A DNA stretch of 64,000 nucleotides from Parvularia atlantis (lineage: Eukaryota; Opisthokonta; Rotosphaerida). A model generated the notes under the pieces. The model was not told the origin of the DNA. It saw nothing but the letters and a program-made list of their open reading frames with translations, and made no database searches. The translations under genes and the position numbers were made by a program. The DNA is taken from contig CALSCO010000043.1 of the NCBI GenBank assembly GCA_943704415.1, positions 19,394-83,393 on the forward strand. Direction: 5' to 3'. Of the stretch, positions 1 to 64,000 are shown piece by piece; the stretch's first letter is position 1, and each line of letters opens with the position of its first letter.

Positions 1-960
1 CCTGATCGTGCGCTCGGCCACGTCCGGGTCGCAGATGCTGAGCGGCGCGCGAGGGTACGAGGGTGCGAGGGCGTCACGCGTGAGCCCGCCCATGCGCGCA
101 TCTCACGGCCGCCGCATCGGCCACACAACGCACACGCCCGCGCCCTTGAAGCGCGCGTCGCCGAGCGCGCGCGACACCTCGAGCTGGCCCATGACGCGCC
201 CGTCGCGCACCTGCCCACCGGCGCGCTGGATACGCTGGCGCTCGTCCCACAGCGTCGGGTCGTGGTCGCGCGTGAGCTCGACGGCGCGCACGTGGGTGGC
301 GGGCGTAACCCCGGGCGCGCGCCGCCGCGTCGCCAGCACGGCCTTGCAGTCGCCGACATGGGCCACGGCCAGGCGGTCGTCGCGCAGCAGCGCGAGCACG
401 GCGCAGGCGCCGTCGCGGTGGTGGGCGTGCGCGGGCTGGCGCAGCGTCTGGTCGGTGCGCCGGAAGGCCTCGAGCAGCGCGGCGCTGAGCGAACGTGTCG
501 CGGGCGCGCCCAGCGCGGCCCAGAGGTGCGTCGGCAGCTCGGTACAGGCCACGGTCGACGCGTTCTCGCCACCGTGCCCGTCCAGCACGAGCGCGAGCGC
601 GAGCGGGCCCAGGCGCTCGACGAGGTCCAGGTGCGCGCGGGCGACGTCAGCCTCGGGGTGCATCGCGTGCCGGTCCTGCATGTGCTCGCGCCGCCCTCGC
701 CGCGCCGCCGCGCACATCGCCGCCGGGCCGATGCCGCCGCTGCTGCTGCGCGCGCGCTTGACGAGCGGGCGCTCGGGCCGTGCCACGGCCGCTGCATTGT
801 CCGCCTCCTCCTCGTCGCTGCGCCGCCGCCGCGCGCAATCGCGCTCGCCAAACAGCTGCTCGATCGGCAGCGCGCGCAGTGCAGCGTCGCCGGCGGGCGC
901 GGCAGCGTCCGGGACCGCGGCCTTGGCGACGGGCGGCGGCAGGCCACCGAAGAGGTCCAT
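1..960 (-). CDS. ILKAP: ILKAP-like PP2C protein phosphatase, 3' part cut by window edge
   Basis: Metal-dependent Ser/Thr phosphatase of the PP2C family. The chosen start (960) gives an N-terminus beginning MDLFGGLP, which matches the MDLFG start of animal ILKAP. PP2C motifs appear in order: REHMQDRH, VLDGHGGENAS (metal-binding Asp/Gly), VAHVGDCKAVLA, then RAGGQVRDGRV and GQLEVSRALGDARFK, which is the ILKAP-type ending of the central domain. One intron at 133-38 (GTGCG donor, CAG acceptor) joins KGAGV to ICDPDVAERTI; the remaining C-terminal metal-binding motif lies outside the window. It is head-to-head with the helicase gene, with 32 bp between start codons. Family assignment is firm; ILKAP orthology rests on the N-terminal and central motifs. 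Confidence 0.88.
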
Positions 961-992
961 CAGTGGCTGGCTGGGAAATCGCGACACAAAAG
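961..992. promoter_or_regulatory. 32-bp bidirectional start-to-start spacer
   Basis: This interval separates the start codons of the ILKAP-like gene (minus) and the DDX28-like gene (plus). Any promoter must be shared or lie inside the two coding regions. I see no TATA-like motif in it. Confidence 0.5.
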
Positions 993-2904
993 ATGCTGGC
1001 GGTCGTTCGGCACGTGGTCCGCTCGCTGCGGACGCGCGCCGCTCGCCCCGCCGCCGCCGCCGCTGCACCGCCACCACCGCCGCCACCGCCCACACCGGTT
1101 GCCGCGCCGCGATCGGGCAGCGTCAACGTCAAGCGCAAGCTTGGGCCGGCGATGCAGCAGCAGCAGCAGCAGCAGCAGCCGCGGCAGTTTGCGCCCGCCA
1201 GGCTCGTCGACAACCCGCACCGCGACGGCGACGGCCGGCCGCGCCCGCCCGCATCGGCATCGGCATCGACGCCGCCTGCGCCCGCACCGCCTGCGCCCGC
1301 ACCGACGCCGCCGACGCCGCCCGTGCGCCGCTCGGCGCTGTGGAACGGCCTCGGGCTGCCGCAGTTCCTCCTGCGCAACCTCGACCGGCTGCGGTACCGC
1401 GCGCCCTCGGCCGTGCAGATCGGCACCGTGCCGCTGCTGCTGAGCGGGCGCGACGGCGTGCTGCAGGCCGCGACGGGTGCGCGCGGCCGCCGCCGCGACG
1501 GCGAGCACGCTGACGCCGCGCCGCGCAAAGGCACCGGCAAGACCCTCGCGTACCTCCTGCCGATCCTTGCGCGCGTGGCCAACAAGGACCCCGGCCCACA
1601 GGCCGTGATCGTGGTGCCGACGCGCGAGCTGGTGCGGTCGCGTGCCGTCGCGTGCTAGCCGCGCTGACCGCACACAGGCCGTGCAGGTCTCGACGCTCGC
1701 ACACGAGCTCGTCAAGGCCGGCGGGCCCAAGCGCGTGGCGCACCCGATCAGTGTGGTCAAGATCGTCGGCGACCTGCCGTCGGAGAACCTGCGGCGGCGG
1801 CTGACGGCGAGCGGCGCGCACGTCGTCGTGGGCACGCCCACGGCCCTGCTGAAGATGTTCACGACCAAGCCGCGCCCGTACAGCTGGTCGCGCGTGTTTG
1901 CGGTCGTGCTGGACGAGGTCGACTACCTGCTGCAGCCGCACACGCGCGAGACGGTCGAGACGCTGCTGCGATGCCGCGAGCACCCGAGCCCGCGCACGGT
2001 ACAGCGCGTGCTCGTCAGCGCGACGATCACGCCTGTCGTCGACGCCGTGGCCAAGCGCGAGCTCAACGACAACCGCTTCCGCACCACGGCCGCGCTCTTC
2101 CTCGACTCGATCCAGCGGTTGTCTGTGGCCGTGCGGCCCAGCGTGCAGACCAGCGTGCGGCCTGATGCTGGTGGTGCGGCTGCTGTGGCTGAGCCTTCGT
2201 CGCCCTCGCCTGCGCCGTCACCGGCACCGGCTGCAGAGGAGGCGCTGCTGCAACAGCTGATGGCGCAGGCAACGGTCACGGCCAATGAGCAGCTGCCCGT
2301 GACGCTCCGGCACGAGCTCATCCGGCCGACGACGTCGCTGCGGCCGACGCGCGGGCCTGTCTCCGAGGCGGACGCGTGGGACGCCGCGCTGTTCCGGCGG
2401 TGGTTCGCGGCGGCCAAGCCGCGCAAGGTGCTCGTGTTTTGCAACTCGCTCGGGCGGCTCGAGCGGCTGGCCGAGGTGCTCAAGGCCAAGGGGTTCCTCG
2501 TGGGCGTGCTCGCGGCCAACACGAAGAAGGACGAGCGGGCCGAGGTGCTGCGGAGCCTGCGGTCGCGCGGGGTGCAAGTGCTGCTGACGACCGAGATGGG
2601 CGCGCGCGGCCTCGACCTGCCCGACCTGACGCACGTCTACAACTACGACGTGCCCGCGACGGCCAACGTCTACATCCACCGTGCCGGGCGGGTGGCGCGG
2701 CTGGACCTGGTGCGGCTGGCGATGCGCGCGGGCACGGTCGTGACGCCGTGGGCGGGCGGCGCCGAGGTCGAGCGGCTGCTGGGCGAGCTGGGCGACGGCC
2801 ACGGCGTCGTGCTGCACACACTCGCGCTCGTGCAGAACCGGCTCGAGGCGTGGTCGGACGAGGCGCACGCGCACAGCCCAAAGATGATGCTGCCGATGGT
2901 GTGA
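993..2904 (+). CDS. DDX28: Mitochondrial DEAD-box RNA helicase (DDX28/MRH4 type)
   Basis: ATP-dependent RNA helicase, 603 aa after removing introns 1477-1530 and 1632-1677. The first splice restores motif I (QAATGTGKT) and the second restores motif Ia (PTRELAVQVS). Other motifs: Q-motif region with a LPQFLLRNL stretch, VGTPTALL, motif II as DEVD instead of DEAD, motif III SAT, TTEMGARGLDLP and the motif VI HRAGRVAR. The N-terminus (MLAVVRHVVRSLRTRAARP) is basic, Arg-rich and lacks acids, as expected for a mitochondrial presequence. It is followed by proline/alanine runs and eight consecutive Gln. In animals DDX28 and in yeast Mrh4 act in assembly of the large mitoribosomal subunit; that role here is inferred. 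The second acceptor ends CAG and the first ends AAG. Confidence 0.87.
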
Positions 2905-17190: not shown

Positions 17191-17998
17191 TCACTTGGCG
17201 TACTTGAGCCGGCCCTGCTCGCTAATGACGCAGATGTGCTGCCGCGCGCGCACAGGCGACGTGAGACGCTGCCGCCACCACAGCCCGGCGCGCACCTGGA
17301 GGTCGCGAAAGTGCTCGTTGTAGTCGAGGCAGTAGCCGACCACAAACTCGTCCGGGATCGTGAAGCCCGCGTCTGCGCAGGCGCGTGCGCACGCACGGTG
17401 AGGCCGGTCGTGAAAGCGCCCCTCCGCAGCACGCACAGTCCGGCTTGAACCCGTTTGACTGTGGTGTGTCCTTGACCAGCAGGCTCGCGAAGCGGATGCG
17501 GCGCGGCTCTAGCGCGCGCAGCTTGGCGATGAGCGCGACGGCACTGCGGCCCGTGTCGATGATGTCCTCGACCACGAGCACGTCCTTGCCGCGCAGGTGC
17601 GCCAGGTCCGCGCCGGTCACGGCCACGTCGCCGGTCGAGCGGTCGTTGACATAGCTCTGCAGGCGCACAAACTCGACCTGGACGGCCACGGGCCGCTCGC
17701 GGTCGGCGTTGAGCGTCGCGATCACGCCGATCAGGTCCGCGTAGAAGCTGTGGCCGCCCTTGAGCACGCACACGGCCACGAGCGGCCCGTCGCTGTCCTC
17801 GATCACGTCGCGCGCGAGCTTGGCGATGCTGCAACGGCTCCGGTCAGCCCGAGCCAGCGCGCACCAGCCCACGCACCGATCGCGCACGAGCCCGTGCGGG
17901 ATCAGCACGCGCGACACGTCGCCCGCGTACTGCCGCGGCAGCGCCAGCAGCGCCGGCGACACGCCCGCGGACCGATCGACAACAATGCTGTTTGACAT
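17191..17998 (-). CDS. HPRT1: Hypoxanthine(-guanine) phosphoribosyltransferase
   Basis: 212 aa from four exons (introns 17876-17829, 17436-17373, 17295-17239). Purine salvage enzyme that transfers phosphoribosyl from PRPP to hypoxanthine or guanine. Diagnostic motifs: [33 protein letters not shown] (loop I), [11 protein letters not shown] (flexible loop), [14 protein letters not shown] (PRPP-binding motif), [19 protein letters not shown] and [10 protein letters not shown]. The length is close to the human enzyme (218 aa). The second splice creates the tyrosine of PDYAGF, as in the family. Cytosolic location is inferred. Confidence 0.95.
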
Positions 17999-18449: not shown

Positions 18450-21400
18450 TTACACCACAGAGTCACCCCTTTCTAATTCGCCGCTGCTGCCGCTCGCGCC
18501 AATGTGCGTCACGCGCGCGACGGCCCGCATCAGTTCGTCCTTGCGGTACGGCTTGGAGATGTAGTCGTCCATGCCCGCGCTCATGCCCGCCGCGACGTGC
18601 ATCTGGCGTGCGCGATCGTCAGCCCACTTCGTCCACCACCACCACAGCCACGCAGGACGCACGTCGCGCGCGTTGCCCGACAGCCCGATGATCGGCACCC
18701 GCGCCCGCCCGTGCGCGCGCTCAAACTCGCGGATCCGCCGTGTCGCCTCGAGCCCGTCCATCACCGGCATCTCCACGTCCATCAGCACAATGTCGAACGG
18801 CTCGCGCTCGTACAGCTCGGCGGCGGCCAGGCCGTTGTCCGCGAGCGTCGTGGTGCATTGGAAGTCGCGGCAGGCCTCGAGCTGCCGCTTGAGCACGCGC
18901 TGGTTGATGTCGTTGTCCTCCACGACTGCGAGCAGGTGCGCACGTGCGTCGGTCAGCGGCACAGCGCGCACAATCAGTGGCCTCGCACGACGCACTCAGA
19001 GCGCGCAGCACGTCGTCTTTCGTCCGCCGTCGCTTGCGCACGGTCGCGCCGGATGACGAGGTCGCAGAGGCAGATGCGCTGTCACCCTCGCTCTGCTGGT
19101 GGTCGGGGGCCATGGCGCTGTCGGGCTGCCGCTCGGCGCCTTCGTCCGCGAGCGTCGAGACGATCGTGGGGGCCCTGGACTCGACCGGCGAGAGCGCGTG
19201 GCGCAGGACGCGCATGTACGGCGCCGACGTACTCAACACGACCTGGATCTCGCGCACGCCCTTGGTCTCGGCCGCCGACCCCGACCCGCCGCTCGACGCC
19301 GGCGCGACGGCGACGGTGCACGGCACGCTTACGGTGAAGGTCGTGCCCACGCCGGCCTCGCTCGCCACGCTAATGTCGCCGCCCATCAGGTCGAGCATCA
19401 TCTTGCTGATGTACAGGCCCAGGCCCGTCCCGCCGTAGCGCGAGTACGTCTTGAGGTTGGCCTGGCGGAAGCGCTGGAAGAGCGAGGCCTGCTCAGCCGG
19501 GGTCATGCCCACGCCCGAGTCCTTCACGCTGATGCACAGGATCATGCGCTCGTCCGCGTCCTGCGCCGCTGCAGCCGACGGGGGCGCCGCCAAAGGTGCC
19601 AGCAGCGGCCGCATCGGGGGCGGGATGGGCGGGGCCGGGAGGCAGTCGAGCACGACGTGGACCTCGCGCACGGCCGCGTTGATCGTGAACTTGAGGGCGT
19701 TTGAGATGAGGTTGATAACCACCTGCGCCAGAGTTAGATCCTCGCGCGTGGACGCGCACCACCTGCAAAGTCATCGCACCTGCGACAGGCGGTACGGGTC
19801 CGCGCTCACGATGACCTCGTCGCGCGGCGGCTCGGGCCCGCGCATGGTCAGGAGGACGCCGTTGGTGCGCGCCTGGGCCGAGAACATGTCGACGACGGCC
19901 TTGACGAGTTCGCTCGGGTTGACGGGCTCGAGGCTGAGCATGACGTTGCCCGAGCTCAGCTTGGACAGGTTGAGCACGTCGTCGGTGATCTTGCGCTGCG
20001 AGGCGGGCGGGGCAGCGGTGAGCGCTCACAAGAACGCATGCACGCACGCGCGCCAGGTGACGCACCTGGTGGTTCATGCAGATGTCGATCGACTTGAGCA
20101 GCGAGAGGTCGTCCGGAATTTGCGCCTGTAGGTTCGCGCGCAAGGGGCCCTCGACAAGCGCGGCAAGCAGCTGCTGGCGCTGCTCCATATTGATCTGGAG
20201 CAGGTCGACGCTGTTGACGATGCCGTTGAGCGGGTTGCGGATCTCGTGGCAGACCATGTCCACAAACAGCTCCTGCTTGCGCCGGTGCTCGTCGGCCTCA
20301 GTCGCGCGCTTGCGCGACTCAAGCTCGGCCTGCCGCAGCGCCGCTAGTCGTTCGGCCTCGAGCGTCTTCTGCTCGGTGATGTCGCTCACGGCCGAGACGA
20401 GTCCGCGCAGGGCCCCCGTGCGCGTGTCAAAGTCGCACATGCTCTGCTTGTAGATCCAGACCTGCTTCCCGTCGCACGGGCGGATGACGCGCAGCTCAAC
20501 CATGTGCGGCACGCCGCAATACGACTCGTGCAGCGACATCAGCGCCAGCTCCTTGTCGTCCGGGTGCACAAACTGGTGCCAGTCGACGAACGCGTCTACG
20601 CCCATGCCGACGATGCCGAGAATGCTCAGGAAGCGCTCGTTGGCGTACACCATGCGGCCCTGGGTGCGTGCGCGTGTGAGTGCGTCAGTGGTGTCTGGCG
20701 CCCAGGCGCAGGCCGCACCTGCGCGTCGCGACGGAAGATGCCGACGGGGCTGAGCTGCGTGATGAGCCGGTACTGCTTCTCGCTCTCGTACAGCGCGCGC
20801 GTGCGCTGGTGCACCATGCGCTCGAGGTGCGAGCGGAACATGCCCAGCTGCAGCTGCGTCTGCAGGCGCGCGATGAGCTCCTGCGCAACGGGGCCAGCGC
20901 ACAAGCCGCGTCAGCACAAGCGCGTGCCCGCTGCAGAGCAGAAGCAGCGCGCACCTTGGCCGAGAACGGCTTGCACAGGTAGTCGTCGGCGCCCGACTGC
21001 AGGCCCTCGATGCGCGCCTCCTCGCCCGAGCGCGCCGACAGGAGAATGATGGGGATGTGCTGCACGGCGGCGTCGGCGCGCAGGCGCTTGATGAGCGCAA
21101 AACCGTCGAGGCGCGGCATCATCACGTCCGAGATGATCGCGTCCGGCAGGCCCGTGGGCGTCGCCACCGACTCGTCCATGATCTCGGCCACCAGGTTCTG
21201 CATCTTGTCGAGCGCGTCCTGTCCGTCCATGGCGACGATGACACGGTAGCGCGTGCTCAGCATCGACTGGACGTACTGTGCGCGAGGTCAGCACGCGAAA
21301 CACACCCGCGCAAGCGTGCACACGCACCAGACGCATGTCGGCGTTGTCGTCCACGAGGAGCACGAGCGGACGCCGGCTGCGAGGCAGCGCGGCACGCAGG

Positions 21401-24868: not shown

Positions 24869-27768
24869 ATGCCGTCGCTGCTGCAGTCGGCGCTGCTCGC
24901 GGGCTCGGCCGTGCTCGTGGGCGACTACCTCGACCAGCAGTGGGGCCTGTCGAGCGACGTCAGCTTCCTCGTCCGGGCCGCGCGCGCCTACGCCAAGTGT
25001 GCCGCCTGCGAAGCGCCCGCGTTGAAGCCGATGGGCTGATCGCGTCGTCCAGGGTCGCCGACACGACGCGCACCTACGCCGACGTGTGGGAGGCCTCGGT
25101 CGACCGGCACGGCGCGCATCCGCTCGTGATCTTCGAGGGCCGCACGGTCTCGTTCCGCGCCGCCGACGACGGTGCGCTGTGTGCCGCGCGCCATCGCGCC
25201 CCGTCTTCTCACGGCTTTGCGCACGTATCACGCCAGCCGCCAACCGCCTCGTTCGCGCGCGCGTGCTGCGCCCTCCTCGTGTGCACGCGACTGACGCGAT
25301 CGTGCGCCGCGCAGGCCAACTGGCTCGTCGGCGCGGGCTTCAAGCAGGGCGGTGTGGCGCCCGCGATGGCGCGCGCCGGGCGCGATGGCGCGCGCTCACG
25401 TGACGCGCGTGTGTGGCAGACACGATCGCGCTGCTAATGGAGAACTGCCCCGAGTTCATCATCGTCGGCGCGGCGGTGGCCAAGATCGGCGTCAAGGCGC
25501 GTGCGCGGTGCTGCGTGCTCTCGTGGCCTGACGCTCGCTCGGCGCAGGTCGCGCTGATCAACACGAACCTGCGCGCCAAGAGCCTGCTGCACTGCGTCCA
25601 GATCTCCAACGCCAAGACGCTGCTGTTTGGCAGCGAGCTCACCGGTGCCGTCCAGGAGGTGCTCGAGCAGCTGCAGCAGCAGAGTGCGGCTCTGCGCCCC
25701 GCCAAGACGCGCGCGTTTGAGACACGCGCGCTTGTACCCAGGCATCCGCTTCTTCGTCCAAGGCGGCCCCGCGCCCTTTGCCGAGCACCTAGACCCGTTG
25801 CTGGCCGCGGCATCCAGCACGCGCCCGCACCGCTCGCTGCGCAGCTCGCTCACGACCGACTCGGTCTTCAGCCTCACGTACACGAGCGGCACGACGGGTG
25901 CGCCCACTGCAGTGCTTGCCGGCGGTCCTCATCTTCACCCTCACCCTCACCCTCACCCTTGCGCGCACACACAGGCCTGCCCAAGGCCGCCAACCTCCCG
26001 CACCTGAAGCAAATCGGTGTGTGCGCGCTCGGCCGACACCGCCACACCTGATGCACGCACGCCCAGGCGCCGGCTGCGTGCTCGAGACCATGTTTGACGT
26101 CACGGCCAAGGATCGCATCTACGTGACCATGCCACTGTACCATTCGGCTGCGGGTGCGATGGCCACGTCCGTGTGCGTGGTCACCGGCTGCACCATGATC
26201 CTCCGGCGCAAGTTCTCGGCCTCGGCGTTCGTGCCTGAGATCCGCGAGCACCGCGCGACGCTCTTCCAGTACATCGGTGTGCACGGTGCAGTGAACTGCG
26301 GCTGCTCGCTCACCGTGCTGCGCCAGGCGAGCTCTGCCGCTACCTCATGACCGTGCCTGAGACGCCGCTCGACGGCAAGAACCACCTGCGCCTCGCGTTT
26401 GGCAACGGCCTGCGCGGTGCGCTGCCTGTGACCGTGGCGCACTCGCACCCCCCTGCGCCTGATGCTTGTTGCGCAGCCGACATCTGGGAAAAGTTCCAGA
26501 AGCGGTTCAATATCCCGCGCATCGGCGAGCTGGTGCGCTGCGAGCACTCTGCCTTTCTGTGCTGACCGGCCAGCGCTGCACAGTACGCCGGCACGGAGCA
26601 CAACGTCAACTTTGTCGGCTTTACGACTGGCCGCACGCCGCTCGGCCGCGGTGCGCTCGCGAGCAGCGGCAGCCGTGGTGCTGGCCTCACACAGGGCGTC
26701 GCAGGCTCATTCGGCCGCACCGGCATCCTGCTGCGCCGCATCCTCAACTCGCGCATCGTCAAGTTTGACATCGAGAAGGAGGAGCCCGTGCGCGGCCCTG
26801 ACGGCCTGTGCATCGAGGTGCGCGTCGCTGCGAACCCGTAAGGCTCGCTGACCCATCTCTGCCAGTGCGCCGCAGACGAGCCCGGCGAGCTGCTCGGCAT
26901 GATCGACGCGCGCAACCAGTTCTATGGCTACCACGGCAACGCGGTGGTGCGCCGCCGCTGCCCGTCGTGCGCGTCGCCTCTCGCCGACCGCGCGCGCCGC
27001 TGCAGGACACCAACAAGAAGTTCATCTACAACGTGCTCAAGAAGGGCGACGCGTTCTACCGCACCGGCGGTGCGCTCGCGCGTCGTGCACCGGCCGTGCG
27101 CTTACTGCGCCGTGCGGCAGACCTCGTCAAGCGTGACGCCAAGGGCTTTGTTTACTTTGTCGACCGCATCGGCGACACGTTCCGCTGGAAGGGCGAGAAC
27201 GTGTCGACGAACGAGGCACGCTGCACTGCTCCAGCCTGCCTGCGCGCGCGTGCACGCTCGCTGATCGCTGCGCGCAGGTGATGGAGGCCCTGACGACGTT
27301 CGAGGGCGTGCAGGAGGCCAACGTGTACGGCGTGCGCGTGCCCGGCAAGGACGGCCGCGCGGGCATGGCTGCGGTCGTCATGGACGACAAGGTTCGCTTC
27401 ATGCGCATGTTGCCCGCACTGCTCTCACGACGATCGCCCAGATCGACCTGGCCAAGCTCGGCGAGCACGTCTCCAAGGCGCTGCCGGCTTATGCCGTGCC
27501 GCTGTTCCTGCGCAAGCTGCGCGCGGAGGAGGTTGCCGCGCAGTTCTCGACCGGCACGTTCAAGTACCAGAAGGTTCGCGGCCTGCTCGACGCGACCGCC
27601 GCCATGAGCGCTCACACGCCGCGCGCGCAGGTCACGCTGCGCAACGAGGGCTTCGACCCGAGCGTCGTCAAGGAGCAGCTCTTCGCGTTCAACCCGCAGA
27701 CGCGGGCCTACGAGGCGTTCGGCCCGAGCCAGTACGCGGCCATCGTCGCCGGCGCGGCGAAGCTGTGA
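24869..27768 (+). CDS. FATP-type very-long-chain acyl-CoA synthetase (SLC27)
   Basis: 626 aa from 19 exons. Introns: 24997-25052, 25172-25236, 25263-25314, 25352-25419, 25497-25547 (GC-AG), 25684-25741, 25898-25974, 26017-26066, 26277-26326, 26417-26476, 26533-26583, 26651-26704, 26818-26865, 26947-27005, 27070-27120, 27216-27277 (GC-AG), 27392-27441, 27574-27630. It activates long and very-long fatty acids to acyl-CoA. A hydrophobic N-terminal segment ([18 protein letters not shown]) may be a membrane anchor. The AMP-binding motif YTSGTTGLPKAA and the FATP signature RTGDLVKRD...[16 protein letters not shown] are both rebuilt only by splicing. The protein ends GAAKL, a PTS1-like tripeptide (yeast Fat1 ends IKL), so peroxisomal targeting is likely. 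Length matches the family. Confidence 0.92.
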
Positions 27769-27791: not shown

Positions 27792-29243
27792 TCAGGCGAT
27801 GGACTTGTTGACGTTCGTAAACCCGACGCCGAGGCACTTGAGCAGCACCGTCTGGTTGCTCGGGTCGGTCGAGACCTTAAACGTGATGCCGAAGAACGTC
27901 TTAAGGTCGCGCAGGTACTGGATGCTGTGTCGCGCGGCCCGCGTGAGCCACAGCATGCGCATGCGCGGCACGGGCACGCACGAGGGCTCGGTCAGCTTGC
28001 CGAAGCGGATCTTGGACACGTCCTCGGGGCTCAGCGTCATCAGCAGCAGGTGCATCGCCTGGTTGAACACGTCCGTGCACCCGCCCTGGTGCAGACGTCA
28101 ACGCTGCACCTCCTCGCGTCCACCCGCACCTTGCTGATCTCGTACAGCAGCTGCTTGGCCGCCATGCGCCCGACGTCCTCCGGCGTCTCGCCGGCCTGGG
28201 CCGTGCACTCGGTGCTGATGAGCACGCCTGTCGTCGACTCGGCCACGAGGCACACGCCAAACCCGGGCGACCTGTACGCCACGCCGCGTCAGCGCCACGC
28301 CCCGCGTCCCTTGTGCCGCGCACGCACTTGCCAGACTCGGCGCCCTTGTAGTGGTCCGTGTAGATGAACACGTCGGGGATGTATTGGTTGAGCAGGGCGC
28401 GCGCCGAGTCGACGAGCCGGTTGGCCGTCTGTGGCGACACGCGCGTCGAGTAGGCGATGCCGCTGCGTCCGCGCTCAGCCCTCACGCGCCCGCATGACCG
28501 GCAGCCACGCACCGTATCCTCTTGATCCGCCCCTCGTCGACAAAGTCGATCGGCTTGAGCGCGCGAACGGGCGCGCAGCGGAACATGACCATGCCGCCGC
28601 CGTCGGGCGGCGCGCCGCGCTTTGTGATCTGCGCCACCGCGCGTGAGCCACACACGCCCGCCGGGCGCCCGCGCGCGCACCTTGAGCTCGAGGTCGCTCT
28701 CGATGCCGAACTTGGTCAGCTGCGGCAGGGTCACGGTGCGGAAGTGGTCGACGCTGAGGTCTGTCGCGTCGTTGGTGATGCCCGTCAGCGTCAGCACGAA
28801 CGGCTTCTTGCTGAACGGCGCGAGCTGGATCATCGGCTCGAGAAAGTACCCTGGGCGGCGCCGCGCGTCTCAGCCGCGCACGGCACGGCCGGCTGCTCCC
28901 GCACCGATCGCGCGCGCCGTGCCGCAGTCGTGCTCGACCTTGCCGCCGACGACGACGCCCGGGCGGAACGTGAGCGTGGTGCCGGTGTAGCTGATCTCGA
29001 CGCCCGTGCCGTTCGTGACCTTCTCGATCAGGCGGAGCAGGCTCGCCTCGTAGTCTTGCGAGACGCCGCGCTCTGAATCAGCACAGCACCGCTGATCGAC
29101 CGTCCACCGCACGCACCGCGCAGGCCCGGATCGTCGTCGCTCGAGCGGATGTGCGTCACGCGCACCGGCCGCGCGCTCAGCAGCGACAGCACCAGCCGCT
29201 GCCGCAGCGCCCCGGCGCCTTCGCACGCCACAAGCGACGCCAT
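27792..29243 (-). CDS. RCL1: RNA 3'-terminal phosphate cyclase-like protein RCL1
   Basis: 358 aa from eight exons; introns 29116-29055, 28904-28851, 28680-28629, 28512-28463, 28327-28272, 28129-28086 and 27981-27925. RCL1 is a nucleolar factor needed for early pre-rRNA cleavage in 18S rRNA production with BMS1. Matches to human RCL1 run through the protein: EGAGALRQRLVLSLLSARPV, IEKVTNGTGVEISYTGTTL, GKVEHDCGTARAIGYFLEP, LTGITNDATDLSVD, YSTRVSPQTANRLVDSAR, YIPDVFIYTDHYKG, PGFGVCLVAESTTG and ECTAQAGETPEDVG. The start at 29243 gives MASLVACEGAG, aligning with the LRFEGCNNFRQRL start of the family. The gene's stop codon is only 23 bp from the FATP stop. Confidence 0.93.
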
Positions 29244-35232: not shown

Positions 35233-37293
35233 TCACAGACGAGCCGAGAGCGGCTGCGGCGGCCAGGGCGCGCGCGGCGGCGGGTGGGCGGCCTCGATCT
35301 GCTTGGCGAGCATGAGCACGACGTCGTCGCGGTGGCGCTCGCCCACGATCTGTACCGCGACCTGCAGTCACGACCGCGCGCGTGAGCCGCGCGCCATCGG
35401 CAGCACTGATCGCGCGCACCGGCAGACCCGCCGCCGACGTGCCCACGCGCACGACCGCGGCCGGGTGACCCGAGAAATTGAACGGGAACATGAAGCCGGC
35501 GACGTGCCACGGCTGGTTGAAGTCATCGCCGTCGGCAAACTTGCGCGGCGCCGGGCCCGCGGCCGCGAACGGGTCCACGGGCATCGCGGGCGTGACAAGC
35601 ACGTCGTGGTCGCGGAACAGCGCCGTCAGCGCCGTGTTGAGCTCAAACACGCGGCGCATGAGCGCGCCCACGTCCGACGTCGTCGTGTCCTTGACCAGTG
35701 CCATGCCCTTGAGGTACGCCGGCTCAACCTGGTCCTCGTGCCCGCGGATCGCCTCCTCGACCATCGCGAGCTCCTGCGCGCGCAAGCGTGAGCACGATCG
35801 CCGTCCGGCTGTGACGGACAGCACGGGCGGCGCACCTGCGCGCCCATGTTGATGAGCCACTCGAGGCCGAGGTCCGGCAGCTCGAGGTCGACGCGCGCGA
35901 CCTTGTGGCCGCGCTTGGTGAAGCTCGCGAGGCCCTGCTCCACGACCGCCGCAATGTCGCGCTGCACTTTGATGGCTGCGGCCCGCACAGGTGAGCCACG
36001 GGCGAGCGGCGCGCCGCACACGCCGCACCGCCCAGGTCCGGGCTGAACGCGACCTTGAGCGCGGGCAGGGCCTCGGCGGCGCGGACGCGCTCGCGGAACG
36101 AGTACGGCGGCAGCGGCAGCGACGTCTTGGCGCACGGCTCGTTAGGCGCGAGCGCGCAGGCGGCTTGTGCGCACCGGGTCGCTTGGGTGGTAGCCGGCCG
36201 TGAGGTCCAGGAAGAGCGCCGCGTCGTCCACCGTGCGCGTGAGCGGGCCAAAGTGCACACAGCGCAGCCACTTGAACATGCCGAACTCGTGCGCCTCATT
36301 CTCTGCAAGGCGCAGCCAGTGAGCGCACGGGGCATGAACGACAAGGCACGCACCGGGGATGCGGCCAAAGGTCGGCTTGAGGCCAAAGCAGCCGACGAAC
36401 GCGGCCGGGATGCGGATGCTGCCGCCGCCGTCCGCGCTTGTCACGAGCGGCACAAGACCTCTGCGCACGCGTGGTCATTCGCATACTCGCGCGTCAGCAA
36501 CGCCGCGCACGCACCCAGCCAGCGCGGCCGACGAGCCGCCGCTTGATCCGCCTGCCGCATGCGCGTCAGCCTGGGCGACCGCGAGCGTGACACGGCGCGC
36601 GCACCGGGTGTGCGGCGCAGGTCCCACGGGTTGCGCGTCGGTCCGAACGGCACCTGCGCAGCACACGCCCCGTCAGTGCACCGCCCCGCACACACACACG
36701 CGCGCGCGCGCACGTTGTTGGTGTGCGCCTGCGAGCCGAAGATGGGCGTGTTGGTCTTGCCGACGACGATAGCGCCAGCGGCGCGCAGCCGCGCGACCTG
36801 CACCGAGTCCTTGGTCGCCGGGCGACCTGCGCGCGCAAAGAGCTCGCAACCGTACGACGTCGGCAGGCCCTCCGCGTCCTCCAGGTCCTTCACGCCCAGC
36901 GGGATGCCGGCCTGGACGGGGGCCCCGTCGTGAGCGCGCACGCACGCGCCGCCGATGTGCACGCACGAGCACGCCCAGCTGCTCGCCGCGACGCTGCACC
37001 TCGGTCTGCTGGCGCGCCTCGGCCAGCGCGCTGCTCACGACGAGCGTGAGCAGGACGGGCCAACACGGCACTGGTACACGTCGCACCGCTGCTCGCAGAG
37101 GAACACGAACGCGTTGAGTGCGCCGTTGCGCTCGCGGATGCGCTCTGCCGCGACCGTGACGGCGATGCGGTCGATGAGCGCGCACACGGCACGAGGTCGC
37201 GCCCGCCGCACCGAAGCACGCCTCGACCACGGCCAACGGCGTCACCTGCGCCGTCGCCACGAGGCGGCTCAGCTCGAGCACGCTCAGGTCCAT
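35233..37293 (-). CDS. Amidase-signature hydrolase (FAAH/GatA-like family)
   Basis: 480 aa from 12 exons. Introns: 37211-37145, 37086-37031, 36966-36912, 36713-36654, 36604-36552, 36514-36461, 36353-36303, 36174-36126, 36028-35976, 35835-35774, 35419-35362. The amidase catalytic triad is present: Lys in [12 protein letters not shown], the cis-Ser in [14 protein letters not shown] and the nucleophile Ser in [17 protein letters not shown]. Other family features are [44 protein letters not shown] and [17 protein letters not shown], ending [16 protein letters not shown]. It hydrolyses amide bonds; the substrate cannot be read from sequence. The four introns around the active site each split it, so splicing is essential. 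The C-terminus SARL is a weak PTS1-like tripeptide. Confidence 0.9.
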
Positions 37294-44943: not shown

Positions 44944-47900
44944 ATGGCCCGTGCGCCCGAACGGCCGCTCCGTCTCGTCATGGCCGTGCCGTCCCTGCAG
45001 CTGCTGGCGTTCGGACGCACGCGGCCGTCGCCCGCGCCGCTCGCCGCGACCGCCGAGGGCGTCACGCCGGTGCTGCCGGCGACGGCGCCGACCGTCGCGC
45101 TGCACTGCGGCGAGCGGCGGTACCTGTTTGGCGGCGTCGGCGAGGGCATGCAGCGCCTGGCGGGCGAGCACCGCTTCCGCCTATCGCGCGCGCAGCACAT
45201 CTTCCTCGCGTGCAGCCGGTGGCACCACGTCGCCGGCCTGTCGGGTGCACAGCCAGCTCGCGTGCGCTTCGGTACTTTGCCGCTGATGCTTACTCCAGGC
45301 GCTCTCATGACCCTGGCGGACGCGAGCGTGTCGGGCGTGTCGCTCTTTGGCCCACAGAACCTCACGCGCCTGATCGCAAGCATGCGGTACTTCCTCAACC
45401 GGTGCGCAGCCGTGGCCCCGTGCACGCGTGCCGCCCGGTTCTGATCGCGGTCGGCAGGACCAACATGCGCGTCGACATCCGCGAGGTCGTCGAGGCCGAG
45501 CCCGTAACTGTGCACCAAGACGCGATCGTCAGCGTGCGCGCCGTGCCCCTTGCGCTGAGCACACGCAGCGAGGCCGAGGCGGTGCGGGCCGAGGCCGCGC
45601 GACAGGCCGCTGACGAGATCACGACGCTGATGTTTGCCGACCGGCCAGACGTAACGTCCAGCCAGGTGCGTGCTCGTCGGCCTGATTTTTGCCGCTGAGG
45701 GCGCGTACGGTGGACAGACGGTTTCGGCCAACGAGAAGCGCAAGCGCGTGCGCACGCTCGAGCGCGAGAGCATCGAGGAGGCCGCCCCCGTGGACGCGCT
45801 CGACAACACGCTGCCGCTACTGGACGAGACCGCGCTGGTCTACATTGTGCAGCTCGCCGACATTCCCGGGCGCGTCGACAAGGAGCGTCTGGCGCGGCTG
45901 CGCATCCCGGCCGGGCCATACATCGGTGCGCCCCGGCCATGCGTGCGTTCTGCGCGCTTACGCCGTCGGCAGGCCGCCTCAAGGCAGGCGAGACCGTCAC
46001 GCTGGACGATGGGCGCACGATCCAGCCGGCCGACGTAGCTGAGCCGGCGATGCTCGGCGAGGCACGGCTGCTCACTGGCATCCTCCATGTTGCTGACGCG
46101 CCGCGCGGCCGGCAGATCGTCCTGATGGTGACCTGCCCCTCGCTCGAGTACGTCGCGCGCCTGGCTGCCTCGACAGCGTTCGACGAGCTGCGGCCTGCCA
46201 CCGCGCGATCGCTAACGCTCGTGCACATGTCGCCGCCACACGTGCTCGCGGCCGCGCGCTACGTCGCCTGGACCAACAGCTTTGGCGCGAGGGCGCGGGT
46301 GCGCTGACTGGTTCGTGGGCTCGCACGCACGCTTACGTGCCCGCTTGCAGCACGTCTTCTGCGACGAGTCAATGGAGTACATCGTCGACCTGCACGAGGG
46401 ACGGACGCCCCGCTGGCGGCACCACCTCAACGGCTCGTCGCTCAACCACGAGCTGCTGCGCTTCGTGCAGCCGCAGCTCTTCGCGCCGCTCCCGCTCTGC
46501 CCGTCGTCGGCCGAGCTGCGCGGCGCGCTGCTGCGCTCGGAGATGCTGCGCACGTGGCCGCTCGTCAGCACTGTGCCGCTCCGGCTCTACAACCAGCTGT
46601 ATCTACGGCGGCGCACGCCGCAGACTGAGCAGCGTGAGCACGAGGCCGCCGTTGCGCGTGCGTCTGCCCGGCCCGCACCCGCAAGGCGCTGACTGTTCGC
46701 GGCAGTCATCAACTCGGGCTCGAAGCAGCTCGTATTGGACGTGCTCGGGCTGGTGACCACGCGTCCCGTGAGCGACTCAGGCACGGAGCTGGAGCAGCAG
46801 CTGGCCGAGCTGACGTGCGTGCATTGTAACGCTTGAAGCGTGCTCACGTGCCCGCAGTGGGCGAGCGGATTTTGCGGCCGCACTCGAGCAGTACCGCGCG
46901 GCGTGTGCGGCGTACGCGGTGCAGCCCGAGGTGTACGACGAGGGCGGGTGGCGCGTGACGTTCTTGGGCACGGGCTCGTCGATTCCGTCCAAGTACCGCA
47001 ACGGTGCGTCTGCTCAGCACGCCGCGTATCCGACGTGCTGACCCCGGAGGCCGCAGTGAGCTCGACGATGGTGCACATGGGCGAAGACGCCGCGCTGCGG
47101 ACGCTGCTGTTCGACTGCGGCGAGGGCACGTGCTCGCAGCTGCTCCGCATTGTCGGCGATGGTGCGCGCAGCCGGCCCCGTTTGCGGTTTGCTGATCGAC
47201 TGCGAGCGCCCCAGACGCGGAGGCTCGTCGCGAGCTGTTCGGCCGCCTGCGCTGCGTGTTTGTCTCGCACATGCACGCGGACCACCAGACGGGCCTGCTC
47301 GAGCTGATGCTGATGCGCAGCTCGTACACTGTGTGCACGCGAACCGCACACCCGTATGTAAGCTGACGGCGTGTGCAGAGCGAGCCGCTGGACGTCGTGG
47401 GGCCGCGCCAGCTCGGCCAGTTCCTGCACGAGGTCGGCCTGATCGAGCCGCTGCCGCCGCACCGCTTCACGGACAACATCGCCGTCAGCCACGACGCGCC
47501 GCCGTGCGCCTCGCGCGCTCGTAGGCGACACGAGCTGACGCGGCATGCGCAGCGACCTGCTGGAGGCGCTCGGGCTCGCGCGCGTTGTGGCCGTGACCGT
47601 GCCGCACACGAGCTCGTCGTTCGGCTTTGTGCTGCACCGCCACGACGGCTTCCGGCTCGTGTGCGTGCACCGCGTTGTGCGTGCGCCGGCCTGCCTTGAC
47701 AAGTGCGCTGCAGCTTCTCGGGTGACACGCGGCCCTCGGACAACCTCGTGAACGCCGGGGTGCGTGTCGCCGCTCGGTAGGCCACTCGGCTGACCCGGCG
47801 GCGCTGCCAGACGGGAGCCGACGTGCTCATCCACGAGGCGACGCTGGAGGACGGCCTCGAGAAGGAGGCGAAAGCCAAGCGGCACTGCACCATGGGCGAG

Positions 47901-48209
47901 GCGGTCGCGGCCGCATCGAGGTACGCGAGAGACATCGGCGCTGGGCCGGCGCGCGCTGAGGCCGTCGTCGACGGCGACAGGATGAACGCGCGCCATGTGC
48001 TGTTGACGCACTTCAGCCAGCGGTACCCCAAGGCGCCCGCGGTGCTCGCGTCGACGTCTGCATCCGCGTCCGCCGCGACGGCCGCCGCGTGGGATCGCTG
48101 CGGGCTCGCAGCCGACCTGATGCAAGTCACGGCGCGGACGATGCCACTGCTCGTGCGCATGAAGCCGCTGCTACCGTTCCTGTTCCCGGCCGAGGACCCG
48201 AGCGACTGA
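44944..48209 (+). CDS. ELAC2: Long-form tRNase Z (ELAC2)
   Basis: 868 aa from 14 exons (human 826). Introns: 45245-45298, 45402-45457, 45666-45717, 45926-45972, 46299-46350, 46658-46705, 46815-46857 (43 nt, the shortest in the window), 47004-47056, 47162-47214, 47331-47378, 47504-47552, 47661-47713, 47760-47810. This endonuclease removes tRNA 3' trailers. The inactive N-terminal half has GERRYLFGGVGEGMQRL, HVAGLSGALMT and GPYIGRLKAGETVTLDDG. The active C-terminal half has FLGTGSSIPSKYRN, LFDCGEGTCSQLLR, the metal motif FVSHMHADHQTG, FSGDTRPSDNLVNAG and the final HFSQRYPK motif with its His. In-frame ATG 44980 is an alternative start. No mitochondrial presequence is obvious. Confidence 0.93.
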
Positions 48210-57130: not shown

Positions 57131-57217
57131 TGGTCATGGCCAGGTTCGAACTGGCGTTATCGGCTGCCCGCGGAGCAAAATCAAAGGCCGATGTGATGAC
57201 CACTACACTACACGACC
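57131..57217 (-). tRNA. tRNA-Gln (anticodon TTG) with 15-nt intron
   Basis: On the minus strand the acceptor arms GGTCGTG and CATGACC pair (one G-U) with discriminator A. The D arm is GTGTAGTGGTCATCAC, a classic A-box. The T arm is GCCAG-TTCGAAC-CTGGC, a B-box. The anticodon stem TCGGC/GCCGA encloses 22 nt instead of 7. Placing the intron at the canonical position after base 37 (57180-57166, 15 nt) gives loop CTTTGAA with anticodon TTG. The mature RNA has 72 nt before CCA addition. CCA is not encoded. Processing by tRNA splicing endonuclease is inferred. Confidence 0.93.
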
Positions 57218-57272
57218 CTCCAGACGCTCGGCGCGGTAAACGCCCATGGATGGTGCATCGTCGTGCTCGGCA

Positions 57273-59443: not shown

Positions 59444-61616
59444 ATGTCGGACACGGCGGCGTCATCGGGCGCGTCGCGCCTCGCCGGCTGGGCGCAGCAC
59501 GTCAACTGGCCGATGTGGAGCACGCTCGGGCTGCTATGGGCCGCCGGTGCGTGCTGCGATGCGTGGAGGTGTGCGCGCGCGGGCCCACGGCGCTGGCGCG
59601 CACAGGCTTCCTGCACGGCTACCTCTTCGCGTCAGCATCGTCTGAGCGACGCCGGCGCGGCTCACGCGCGATCGCGGCCGAGGCGAGGCGTGACGAGGGC
59701 GGCGTAGCATTGACCGTGCGCGACCAGCCGTCGGCACTGCAGCTTGTGCCGCGCAGCCAGCGCTGGATGGACGACCTTGAGGCTGCGTTCCACGTCTCGT
59801 CGACTCATCTGTACGAGATCGTGTGCGTCCGCGCTTGCGCCCGCGCCCGCTGCAGCCGTGGCTGAGCATCGAGCGTGTGCGTGTGCGTACAGCCGCCACT
59901 TTGTCGCAGAGATGGAGCTCGGCCTGACCAAGACCGGCAGCAGCATGAAGATGATTCCGTCGTTCGTCGAGCGCCTTCCCACGGGCAACGAGCGCGGCAG
60001 CATGCTCGCCCTCGACCTCGGCGGCTCCAACTTCCGCGTCGTGCAGGTGTGCGCGTGACACAGTGCACGTCTCTGCTCACCACGAGACGCGTGCGTGCAG
60101 GTGATGATGGACGGCAACGGCCAGACGCGCACGCAGCACAAGAAGTTTGTCGTGAGCGACGAGCTCAAAGTCGGCCACGTCGACGACGTGCGCGCCCGCT
60201 CCGCACCCGCTTGTCTGTGCGCGTCCCTTACCCGCCCGGGCGCGCAGCTGTTTGACTTCCTGGCCGACTGCATCAAGCAGTTTCTGCAGGAGAGCAACCT
60301 CGGCGTCGAGGCCGAGCACTTCCTCGGCTTCACGTTCTCGTTCCCCGTGCGGCAGCACTCGATCAACAGCGGCGAGCTGATAGAGTGGACCAAGGGTGCG
60401 CGTGCGCCCACGCACCCTCAAGCCCGCGCTGAATTCTCGCGCCGCAGGCTTCTCGATCCCGAGCGCGGTCAACCAGGACGTGTGCGGGCTGCTCGACCGC
60501 GCGATCAAGCGCAAGGTGCGCACGTGGTGCACGACACAGCGCGTAGGGTCTGACGCGCGGCGCACGAAGGGCATGAACGTCAAGGTCGCCGCGCTTGTCA
60601 ACGACACCGTCGGCACGCTCGTCGCCCACGCCTATCAGGACATCGAGACGGTCGCGGGTGTGATCCTCGGCACGGGCAGCAACGCCGCGTACGTGGAGAA
60701 GCTGAGCAACGTGCCCAAGTGGGACGCGCCGCCCAGTAAGAGCGGCCTGATGATCATCAACATGGAGTGGGGCAACTTTGACTACAGGCGCAAGGTGCTG
60801 CTGGGCGAGCGTGTCGCGCGTGCGGCTCATGGCTCACGGCGCCGCGCGCAGGTGCTGCCGATCACGCGCTACGACGTCGAGATCGACGAGCGCTCGCCGA
60901 ACCCGGGAAAGCAGCTGTACGAGAAGCTCATCTCGGGCATGTACCTGGGCGAGATCTTGCGCGTCGTGCTCGTCGACCTCGCCAAGCGCGGGCACATCTT
61001 CCGCGGCGAGATGTCGAAGCAGCTCGAGACGCCGTACGGCATTGACACGGCGTTCCTGTCGCGCATCGAGCGGTGCGTGAACACGCTCGAGCACAACGCC
61101 CGCGACGTGGCTGACCGCTCGCACCAGCGACCACTCGCTTGACCTGCACGACACGCGCGCCGTGATCGAGGAGCTGCTCGGCATCAAGGAGCCCTCGAGC
61201 GAGGACTGCAAGGTCGTCAAGCGCGTGAGCGAGCTCGTTGGCATTCGCGCGGCGCGGCTGAGCGCGGCGGGCGTGGCAGGCGTGGTGCGCACTCCCTTTG
61301 CTGGTGTGCGTCGAGCCTCATGCCGACGCGCGCGCGCGCGTACCCGCAGGTGACCAAGACGAACCGCCTCGGCGGCTGCACGGTCGCGGTCGACGGCTCG
61401 GTGTTTGAGAAGTACCCGCACTTTGCGAACCGCATGAACGACGGTGCAACACTTTGCGCCAGCCCGCCTGGCCGCCTGCCTGACACGCCCGCCCGCCGCC
61501 GCGCAGCGCTCATCGAGATCTTTGGCGTGTCGGCCGACGCGATCCGCATGGTCCAAGCGCGCGACGGCTCGAGCGTCGGCGCCGGGCTCATTGCGATGCT
61601 CGCGAGCCAGTCGTGA
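59444..61616 (+). CDS. Hexokinase with N-terminal membrane anchor
   Basis: 527 aa from 11 exons; introns 59547-59605, 59823-59892, 60047-60100, 60188-60247, 60396-60447, 60516-60569, 60795-60851, 61073-61127, 61285-61349 and 61444-61506. It phosphorylates glucose with ATP at the start of glycolysis. Motifs: [14 protein letters not shown] (phosphate 1), [31 protein letters not shown] with the sugar-binding Asn-Gln-Asp, [17 protein letters not shown] with the catalytic Asp, [42 protein letters not shown] and [14 protein letters not shown] (adenosine motif). The N-terminus carries a hydrophobic segment ([18 protein letters not shown]) like plant and some protist hexokinases that bind the outer mitochondrial membrane. 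At 527 aa it is the single-domain type. Confidence 0.93.
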
Positions 61617-61813
61617 GCGTGTCGTCCTGTCCCGCCAGCAGAAACTCAAAGGGCGCTCGTGCGGAGCGTGCTGTCCAATCCGAAAAGAGCATTCTGAAAT
61701 AACGCGTGCTCCGCGCGCCGATTGGTCCGCCCCTTCGAAGGCACGTGGCTTCCGCGGAAAACGCTCCCACGGTTGCATTCCTCTCGCTGTCTCTCGAGCA
61801 CCCGGCTGACGCG

Positions 61814-64000
61814 ATGCTGCCGCGCGGCGCACGGCACGTCGCAGCTCTCGCGCTGGTCGTGCTGGCCGCGGCCGTTGGCACGGCGCACGCCGCCGACTCG
61901 TGTCTCGCCTACGCCGGTGCGCGCCGCTGTCAACAACAACAACAAAAAAAAAAGGCTCGCCGCGGTCGTGGTTGACGGGTTCGCGGACGCAGCGACGTTC
62001 TCGCAGGCGTACCCTGGCTACAGCCCGAACTGCGTCATGTCTGCGTGCGTTTGTCGTGCGACGTGAGAGAGGGGGGGATCCCCGCTGCTGACGGGCGGAT
62101 CGCGCTTGTCGAAAGGCCGCGCAACATCTTCTGCTCGTTCGACTCGACGTCGTACCCGTTCTGCGGGCCGACGTCGTGCCAGCAGGTCAAGGACTACGGC
62201 CCATACATGCAGCAGCGCTGCAACATGCAGCTGGGCGCGTGCTGCTCGTGCTCGCTCTCGTGCGGCTTCTGCACGGCCAACCGCAAGGACGAGTTCGTCG
62301 ACTGCTCGTGCACCATCCCCTACTACGACGCGTGCACGGCGTGCATCCCGCGCACCGGCGCGCCGTACTACGGCCCGACGTGCTCGGGCATCTGCCCGGC
62401 GTGCGTCAACGGTGCGTGCGGCGCGTCCTGTGCGCGCAGCCTGAGCCGTCCGCCGCGAAGGAACGTGCCGCTCGGGCCCGACGGGCGACGGCGGCTGCAC
62501 GTGCATCACGGGCTACGGCGGGGCGCTGTGCAACACCAGTGCGCCCTCCGCCATCGCCCGCTGCGCCCGCTCATCCGCGCCGCGCAGCCGTCTGCGGCGA
62601 CGGGCTCGTCCTGGGCGACGAGCAGTGCGACACGGGCGTGGCGGTCAACAGCCGCATCAACTGCCCGTACGGCCAGACCTCGTGCGGCGCGGGCTGCTAC
62701 CAGTGCCGGAACGTGACCTTTGAGGTGAGGCGCGGCGCCTCGTGCCCGCGATCGCGCCCTCACGCCGCGCGCAGAACGAACCGACCGCGTACAACGTCCG
62801 CTACTGCGGCGACGGCATCATCACGACCAACGGCTGGCTTAACCAGTCCACGGCGCAGAACGAGGCGTGCGACACGGGCCCCAGCGTCAACAGCCCTTGG
62901 CGCTGCCAGTATGGCGTGCCGAGCTGCTCGGGCTGCTACCAGTGCAAGAGCATCTCGCCGCCCGTACGCGCGCACGCGGTGGGCGAATATTTCCCCCCTG
63001 ACTGACCGAGCGCACGGCGCGCAGAACCCAAACATACTCACGGCACGGTGCGGCGACGGCATCGTCCAGACCGGCTGGCCGGGCCAATCGAGGGACGAGC
63101 AGTGCGACCTGGGCGCGGCCAACGGCGGCGTGAGCGGATGCAACAACCAGTGCCAGTTCTTCACGCCCACGCCGTCCGCGACCGCCACAGCCACGTTCAC
63201 TCCCTTCACGCCGAGCGCGACCGCCAGCGCGTCGGCGAGCGAGACGGCCACGGCGACCGCGACGGGCACGGCGACGATGGAGATGACGCCGAGTGCGACC
63301 GCGAGCGCGACAGCGTTGGAGAACGAGACAGCCTCGGCGACAGAGACATCCGCGCCCACGGCCGCAGCGACTCCCACTACGACCTTGACGCCCACGGCCG
63401 CAGCGACTCCCACTACGACCTTGACGCCCACGGCCGCAGCGACTCCCAGTACGACATCCGCGCCCACGGCCGCGGCAACACCCACTACGACCTTGACGCC
63501 CACGGCCGCAGCGACCGCTTCTTTGACTGCCATGGCGAGCGCGACCGCAACAGCGAGCGCGATGGACACCGCGTCAAGCACTGCGACAGCAAGCGCATCG
63601 GACACCGCGACGGCGTCCTCGTCTGAGACCGCGACCGACACGGTATTCGCCTCGGCGTCCGCCACCGCATCCACCTCGGCAACGGCTTCTGCCACCGACT
63701 CGGACACCGCCAGTGCGACGGCCAGCGCGACCACGACGCCGCGCGCGACCATCACGCCCACGCCCACACCCACGCCGGTCTACTACACCGCGACCGTACG
63801 CCGCACCAGCGCGGGCGCCGCAAGCTCGTACCTGAACGAGCAAGTCGGCTCGGCCGGTCTCGACGCGGCCGTCGTGTTCCAGGCGACCGTCACGCCCTCG
63901 CCGCTGCCCACGGCCAGCCTTCTCTACACGTGGACGTGCATTAATCCCATCGCCGTGTGCCCGCAGATCACGCAGACCAACCAGGTGCGCTTGTGTGAGC
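61814..64000 (+). CDS. Secreted cysteine-rich, mucin-like protein, 3' part cut by window edge
   Basis: At least 605 aa from seven exons, then an intron opening at 63985. Earlier introns: 61917-61992, 62045-62115, 62412-62460, 62539-62587, 62725-62774 and 62964-63024. A signal peptide (MLPRGARHVAALALVVLAAA) ends at HAADS. A Cys-rich region (CNMQLGACCSCSLSCGFC) is followed by GDGGCTCITGYGG (EGF-like) and three repeats of CGDG...CD-G: CGDGLVLGDEQCDTG, CGDGIITTNGW...EACDTG and CGDGIVQTGW...EQCDLG, the DUF4215/Myxococcus Cys-rich type. Then about 200 residues of Thr/Ala/Ser/Pro, with a 12-residue tandem repeat, look heavily O-glycosylated. The last visible part (SLLYTWTCINPIAVCP) may begin a PKD/REJ-like domain. 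Probably a cell-surface or matrix protein. Confidence 0.8.
63352..63531 (+). repeat. 36-bp coding minisatellite (five units)
   Basis: Five in-frame 36-bp units at 63352, 63388, 63424, 63460 and 63496 encode [AT]PTAAATPTTTL and variants. The units differ mainly at their ends, and the last is degenerate. They form the core of the Thr/Ala-rich linker. Confidence 0.88.

Follow-up and report, generated by a model that had tools for sequence, protein, structure and literature searches.

Excerpts of Irimia and Roy (2008, PMC2483917) describe introns of Ostreococcus lucimarinus, outside chromosome 2, whose 5' splice site (donor) reads GTGCGTG, with 4.8 bits of information over positions +3 to +6, and whose branch site has a CTGAC core; the authors asked whether small nuclear RNAs (snRNAs) compensate for such donors. 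In Micromonas, canonical introns and introner elements were reported with an AG|GTGCGT donor and an NCTGAC branch motif, and some introners with GC donors (sections of PMC3879977). Here we report GTGCG as the predominant donor in a window of 64,000 nucleotides (the whole stretch of DNA under analysis, contig C5, positions 19394-83393) and throughout the sampled genome, with the consensus G|GTGCG(C/T). We consider it probable that GTGCG is the ordinary donor of the major (U2-type) spliceosome in this genome, that its U1 and U6 snRNAs are unchanged in sequence, and that the motif results from pressure towards high guanine + cytosine (GC) content together with selection for C at position +4.

The introns of this genome resemble the O. 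lucimarinus set described in those excerpts in their atypical GTGCG donor, strong 5' splice site and CTGAC branch core. However, that set belongs to an intron-poor green alga, whereas our 100 complete gene models carry a mean of 8.56 introns, at a density of 3.73 per kb of sequence, and have a looser branch motif. Micromonas likewise shares the GTGCG-type donor and the CTGAC branch motif, but the cited sections place the latter 43-52 bases from the acceptor (PMC3879977), versus 12-25 bases in 537 of 617 cases here, where the last 45 bases were searched and a median intron length of 57 leaves little room. Relative to the AG|GTGCGT donor of these Mamiellophyceae, the share of GTGCG (668 of the 918 introns kept for statistics) and of G at -1 (70%, learned model, 256 kb) agree, whereas the low share of A at -2 (32%) and the excess of C over T at +6 differ.

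Donor usage in the window and across the genome sample

In addition to the window, we analysed 180 kb from elsewhere in the assembly (16.25 Mb, 616 contigs) and extra loci or stretches for single genes, and we searched the genome for snRNAs and splicing factors. The sequence fetched first has a GC content of 67.5%. Genes were predicted over 256 kb with a purpose-written finder seeded with codon frequencies from a single helicase gene. It allows introns of 28-160 bases and requires them to start with GT and end with AG, its branch model favoured CT(A/G)AC, and round 1 has no donor preference beyond GT. Intron ends in these models rest on reading frame and homology. With the learned donor model, GTGCG starts 670 of 921 introns, followed by GTGTG (48), GTGCA (26), GTGCC (24) and GTGAG (14), and the acceptors are CAG (854), AAG (36), TAG (28) and GAG (3). 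Composition statistics were computed on 918 of these introns, one of them counted twice because locus L006 overlaps the window. GTRAG donors were found in only 15 of the 918, and the canonical GTRAG consensus therefore does not describe this genome.

In the window, 157 of the 199 predicted introns, distributed over 26 gene models, start with GTGCG, as compared with 10 for GTGTG, 5 for GTGCA and 2 for GTGAG, and 186 end with CAG and 10 with AAG. These numbers bear out the preliminary description of this DNA, which had reconstructed about 188 introns in 29 genes, mostly with GTGCG donors, ending with CAG or, in about ten cases, with AAG. A purely local pattern, which that description named as a possible refutation, is not what we found, as GTGCG also starts 511 of the 719 introns predicted elsewhere.

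The preference for GTGCG was also recovered by finder runs blind to the donor. Round 1, with the codon usage of one gene, yielded GTGCG in 412 of 842 introns (5.3-fold over all GT sites). With learned codons and no donor model the proportion was 447 of 874 (5.5-fold); leaving out the branch model as well gave 439 of 993 (4.8-fold). Among introns with a single in-frame GT (learned model), 123 of 183 start with GTGCG and 82% have C at +4. Control runs in which introns were forced to start with GC, GA, CT or TG returned 770-896 introns, about as many as GT, indicating that the number of introns alone proves nothing. Among the six commonest pentamers of each control, only GCGGT, GAGGT and CTGGT exceeded 2.1-fold enrichment (at most 3.9); since all three end in GT, the control runs point at real donors three bases on. 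When GT and GC starts were given equal cost, GC was so common that nothing could be learned about the proportion of GC-AG introns. An earlier plain count of GTGCG near branch motifs, which gave 2-fold enrichment only, is superseded by the finder runs.

Two other classes of introns were considered. An introner origin was rejected, with only 26 similar pairs among the 918 introns. Of the 15 similar pairs listed, 9 come from locus L014, where several neighbouring introns are 82-96% alike and form a local repeat, and one is the overlap of two fetched stretches. The U12-type donors ATATCCT and GTATCCT were found in none of the 918 introns, which is a weak test given that the finder admits only short introns with a GT start.

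Junctions supported by homology

To characterize donors with homology support, we compared the products of the RCL1, hexokinase, hypoxanthine phosphoribosyltransferase (HPRT), amidase and PRP8 genes, the last with its putative inteins removed (see below), with solved structures, and junctions were accepted by eye on the alignments when no gap was present within about three residues. Two further junctions, in a DEAD-box helicase gene, were accepted on the recovery of AATGTGKT and PTRELAVQ, which we take to be DEAD-box helicase motifs. The genes were picked as recognisable conserved families and represent 5 of the 26 window genes plus PRP8; EF1A junctions were not counted. Of the 72 accepted donors, 26 belong to the five window genes and 46 to PRP8, of which 37 lie at or before solved-chain residue 1841 and 9 after it. 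GTGCG is found at 68 of them, C at +4 in 71 and GTRAG in none, although the GTGCG share in such conserved genes may exceed that of the whole genome. Over positions +3 to +6, the information amounts to 5.92 bits in 62 homology-accepted donors and 4.24 bits in all models, values computed against uniform bases and thus partly reflecting composition.

Twelve junctions were dropped, owing to nearby alignment gaps, lack of alignment or location inside inteins, and 7 of these have GTGCG. They comprise three of the nine aligned hexokinase junctions (two GTGCG, one GTGCT), two of eleven in the amidase gene (both GTGCG), one of three in the DEAD-box gene (GTGCG), four of 51 in PRP8 (GTTGC, GTACG, GTGCG and GTGCC) and two predictions inside the inteins (GTGCG and GTGGG). 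One PRP8 intron missed by the model was added by hand (GTGCGC), and five PRP8 junctions, between extein residues 510 and 682, rest on length balance only. In RCL1, the model places the acceptor of intron 1 too early by 18 bases; the aligned protein is restored by use of an AAG acceptor, and the junction was kept.

Small nuclear RNAs and pairing with the donor

A single match to U1 was identified (88.1 bits, contig C477), whose 5' end, AUACUUACCUG, is canonical. The single U6 match (63.7 bits, contig C142) carries GAUACAGAGAAGAUU, with a canonical ACAGAGA box. U2, with GUGUAGUAUCUGUUC, and U5, with the loop CGCCUUUUACUA, gave one match each and are canonical where they meet the intron. Judging from these snRNAs and from their GT...AG ends, the introns are probably of the major (U2-type) kind. 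A relaxed search of the genome with E-values up to 10 retrieved no variant U1 or U6: one further 13-bit fragment was found for U1 and nothing more for U6.

At the AGC catalytic triad, the U6 gene carries an insert of 48 bases, GAUUA[GUUGCG...GUCGUU]GCAUGG. No AG end restores U6, and by eye no GT-AG pair restores the AGC triad. The fold of the gene is no better than that of shuffled sequences (z -0.25). By eye, the insert holds a B-box-like word; the intron of the Schizosaccharomyces pombe U6 gene contains a B box.

We assume that position +4 of the donor faces position 5 of U1, normally a pseudouridine, and A43 of U6, in which case C at +4 would have neither a Watson-Crick nor a wobble partner in either snRNA. 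Binding of the observed donors to the U1 5' end was calculated with ViennaRNA at -4.33 kcal/mol on average, and for the same donors with the +4 base replaced throughout at -7.85 (A), -7.18 (G), -4.43 (T) and -4.19 kcal/mol (C), C giving the weakest duplex.

The donors themselves point to the register in which they are read. Among the 447 donor-blind GTGCG sites, T is present at +6 in 79 of the 316 donors with G at -1 versus 71 of the 131 others (odds ratio 0.28, p 6.5e-9). The same trade-off is found in two further donor-blind sets, which overlap to a large extent (odds ratios 0.27 and 0.37), and in 63 homology-accepted donors (odds ratio 0.15, p 0.005), that is, all but the last nine of PRP8, which all have GTGCG. 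It is absent when all 2,576 occurrences of GTGCG in the window and in the loci outside it are counted (odds ratio 1.04, p 0.74). T at +6 has a possible partner in U1 as well as in U6. That a missing G at -1 is made up for by T at +6 in donors and not in the background suggests that the donors are paired in the normal register. C at +4 is independent of G at -1 (odds ratio 1.15, p 0.54).

METTL16 and SNRNP27K

Parts of Parker et al. (2023, PMC10581693) link A at +4 to the presence of METTL16 and SNRNP27K and U at +4 to their loss, place M141 of SNRNP27K near A43 of U6, and report that the interacting U1 and U6 bases are invariant across the +4 switches, with little change of the weak-to-strong (W:S) base ratio at this position. 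The Saccharomycotina studied there thus also change their +4 preference without a change of U1 or U6 sequence. However, they exchange A and U, U going with the loss of METTL16 or SNRNP27K, whereas the present genome has C, is intron-rich and possesses both genes. The tunicate Fritillaria borealis, which has METTL16 and a preserved core spliceosome, likewise shows altered splice-site use (excerpts of PMC13326754), but most of its introns break the GT/AG rule, while here GT...AG is kept and mainly +3 and +4 are changed.

A METTL16 relative was identified on contig C232 (PF05971, E-value 1.6e-52), with a conserved NPPF motif. Its best solved match is the U6 A43 methyltransferase (168 bits), followed by psilocybin synthase (159); the match ends near residue 309, and the assignment was made by similarity rather than from a tree. 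A second METTL16-like match, L025, was set aside, as it looks like another methyltransferase (HemK-like by eye). The SNRNP27K gene, on contig C442, encodes a protein that aligns well with the solved chain and conserves M141 (numbering of the latter). This gene also contains a GC-AG intron, AAG|GCACGC...CACACAG, supported by the alignment and with C at +4, which is not part of the 72 accepted donors.

Probable selection at +4 and alternative explanations

Intron interiors consist of 11.4% A, 36.5% C, 35.1% G and 17.0% T, whereas the +4 position of the 918 introns has 3% A, 86% C, 3% G and 8% T. Since C and G are nearly equal in the interiors, composition cannot favour C over G at +4, in line with the view of the preliminary description that GC bias explains C at this position poorly. 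G would fit the composition equally well and strengthen pairing with U1, and its near absence argues for selection of C. A similar replacement has taken place at the branch site: CTGAC and CTCAC, present in 30% and 24% of intron tails versus about 3% each in shuffled tails, replace CTAAC (1%) opposite a canonical U2. The share of CTGAC is partly built into the finder, that of CTCAC is not. These branch-like motifs had been noted previously, together with the suggestion of a greater reliance on the branch site; the one test that we made does not favour the latter, as CTGA is equally frequent with GTGCG and with other donors (odds ratio 1.01).

We propose that strong GC pressure would have removed the ancestral A at +3, at +4 and in the branch motif. 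At +3, G could replace A by wobble pairing with U1. At +4, the bulky A43, which is probably methylated, would have admitted only the small base C opposite it, and C would then have become preferred. G at +5 and the base at +6 would pair as usual, first with U1 and then with U6.

An alternative is that +4 is hardly selected and took the composition of the genome through GC drift. This would be consistent with the high GC content, with the increase of C at +4 from 80% to 91% between the lowest and highest quartiles of intron GC, and with the GTGCGT donors of Ostreococcus and Micromonas, whose genomes are GC-rich. However, the scarcity of G at +4 despite its abundance in the interiors, and the persistence of C in the lowest quartile and even in the lowest decile (71 of 92), make drift alone unlikely.

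Another possibility is that a spliceosomal protein reads C at +4 through a changed surface of SNRNP27K, LUC7, U1-C or PRP8 near A43 of U6. The high information at a position where neither U1 nor U6 can pair would speak for a protein reader, as would the proximity of SNRNP27K M141 to A43. Nevertheless, both the conservation of M141 in a well-aligned SNRNP27K and the few gaps between PRP8 outside its inserts and solved PRP8 chains argue against such a change, and we hold this explanation to be doubtful.

There is also a slim chance that C represents a third evolutionary state of +4, actively read through an altered chemistry of A43 with the letters of U6 unchanged. A43 might be inosine, which pairs with C, or a protonated or unmethylated form favouring a C-A pair. 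If so, RNA modification, rather than mutation of the snRNAs, would have rewritten the splice code.

The preliminary description had proposed compensatory changes in U1 or U6, an idea that the excerpts of Irimia and Roy also raise for Ostreococcus (PMC2483917). A variant snRNA pairing fully with GTGCG would account for a donor that hardly varies from +3 to +5, as though it were recognized by pairing, but the single U1 and the single U6 identified are canonical and the relaxed searches returned no variant, which renders this explanation very improbable. Lastly, GTGCG is the most frequent GT pentamer of the window (647 occurrences) and wrong dinucleotides give as many introns, so that the finder might have mistaken a common GC-rich word for intron starts, but GTGCG is enriched 5.3- to 5.5-fold when the donor-blind finder uses the branch model, which the dinucleotide controls do not match, and the homology-accepted donors largely refute such an artefact, to which we give next to no credence.

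Several points weigh against an ordinary U2-type donor with unchanged snRNAs and selected C at +4. The junctions are predictions from frame and homology. The share of GTGCG is 67% in the frame-forced set and 41-51% in the donor-blind runs, below that in conserved genes, which is partly finder error. In the register analysis, A at -2 shows only a trend with T at +6 (odds ratio 0.64, p 0.06), and G at +5 goes slightly with G at -1 (odds ratio 1.68, p 0.015). C at +4 rises with intron GC (p 0.0002), so drift contributes, although it does not decide. The assembly may be incomplete and might lack a variant U1 or U6; the U6 gene with its 48-base insert is possibly not the working copy. Methylation of A43 is predicted from the METTL16 relative, and the presence of the gene is no proof of methylation, as excerpts of PMC13326754 report strongly reduced U6 N6-methyladenosine in a larvacean with METTL16. 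Finally, the reason why C would be preferred at +4 rather than merely tolerated is only proposed.

Nature of the host

No match to light-harvesting proteins (PF00504) was found in the 16.25-Mb assembly, which does not suggest a photosynthetic green-algal host. No match to the chitin synthase 2 domain (PF03142) was found in the genome either, a result that neither shows nor excludes a fungus. The EF1A protein carries the insert MPWFKGWKKLDKKGAEVKGVTLVEALD, which we assume to be an opisthokont mark. The host is thus apparently non-photosynthetic and perhaps an opisthokont, and these observations suggest that its donors are independent of those of Mamiellophyceae.

Putative inteins in PRP8

PRP8 is a core protein of the spliceosome. 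The PRP8 gene of this genome is predicted to code for about 5,125 residues and to contain 51 introns. Six in-frame inserts of 462, 407, 531, 612, 316 and 475 residues are present at six sites. All six start with Cys, end with Asn and are followed by Cys, Ser or Thr, and a block B His was recognized by eye. Four of them match Hom_end_hint (PF05203). Inteins 1 and 6, which are similar to one another, have no match among Pfam families. The gene therefore appears to hold six inteins, judged from these sequence features, and if all six are inteins, maturation of PRP8 would need six protein-splicing events. A portion of PMC6805012 states seven Prp8 intein insertion sites across eukaryotes, and a narrow check of the literature retrieved no report of six inteins in Prp8. 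No further intein similar to these six was found among the sequence fetched up to that comparison.

Other features of the window and of the sampled loci

The genes that supplied accepted junctions, two additional window genes with Pfam matches and the other located features are listed in Table 1. The hexokinase model past about codon 526 is probably a second gene, wrongly joined. The tRNA gene is the sole Rfam match in the window at the gathering threshold. A locus without finder gene models, L010, has 23.5% GC, seven tRNAs and open reading frames resembling, by eye, nad1, nad4 and ribosomal protein genes, and is probably mitochondrial DNA.

Table 1. Location of the features described in the text; positions without a contig or locus prefix are those of the window.
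Feature	Position	Strand	Observation
DEAD-box helicase intron	1477..1530	+	GTGCGC...AAG; excision yields AATGTGKT
Same DEAD-box helicase gene, intron	1632..1677	+	GTGCGG...CTGAC...CAG; excision yields PTRELAVQ
Hypoxanthine phosphoribosyltransferase gene	17191..17998	-	3/3 introns GTGCG; ungapped alignment
Histidine kinase-like (by eye) gene model	18450-24259	-	1,675 residues
AMP-binding (acyl-CoA synthetase-like) gene	24869..27768	+	16 predicted introns, 9 GTGCG; Pfam match; finder models only
RCL1 (RNA 3'-terminal phosphate cyclase-like) gene	27792..29243	-	6/6 introns GTGCG; alignment
Amidase gene	35233..37293	-	9/11 junctions accepted, 9/9 GTGCG
tRNase Z-like gene	44980..48209	+	13 predicted introns, 11 GTGCG; Pfam match; finder models only
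tRNA gene	57131-57217	-	87 bases
Hexokinase gene model	59444..63626	+	6/9 aligned junctions accepted: 4 GTGCG, 5 with C at +4
U6 gene	C142:8820-8981; L002:1501-1662		48-base insert
PRP8 gene	G000:C417:5600-26500; L038, L036, L039		six putative inteins
GC-AG intron of SNRNP27K	L026:1460-1510		C at +4
Probable mitochondrial DNA	C3:1-10000 (L010)		

Significance

GTGCGT donors were known from Ostreococcus and Micromonas. What is new is a GTGCG donor in a genome that is apparently non-photosynthetic, intron-rich and perhaps that of an opisthokont, and in which the snRNAs are canonical and METTL16 is present; other such hosts may be in print. Excerpts of Parker et al. (2025, PMC11732430) tie intron loss to more invariant donors. 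The present genome would be a counter-example to the rule that intron-rich genomes have loose donors, its donor information being partly composition, and to the rule that METTL16 and SNRNP27K go with A at +4, as both genes are present and +4 is C. The question asked by Irimia and Roy in 2008, whether snRNAs compensate, would be answered here in the negative as far as the recovered snRNA genes are concerned. This genome may thus be regarded as a natural experiment on what reads position +4: RNA pairing, RNA modification or protein.

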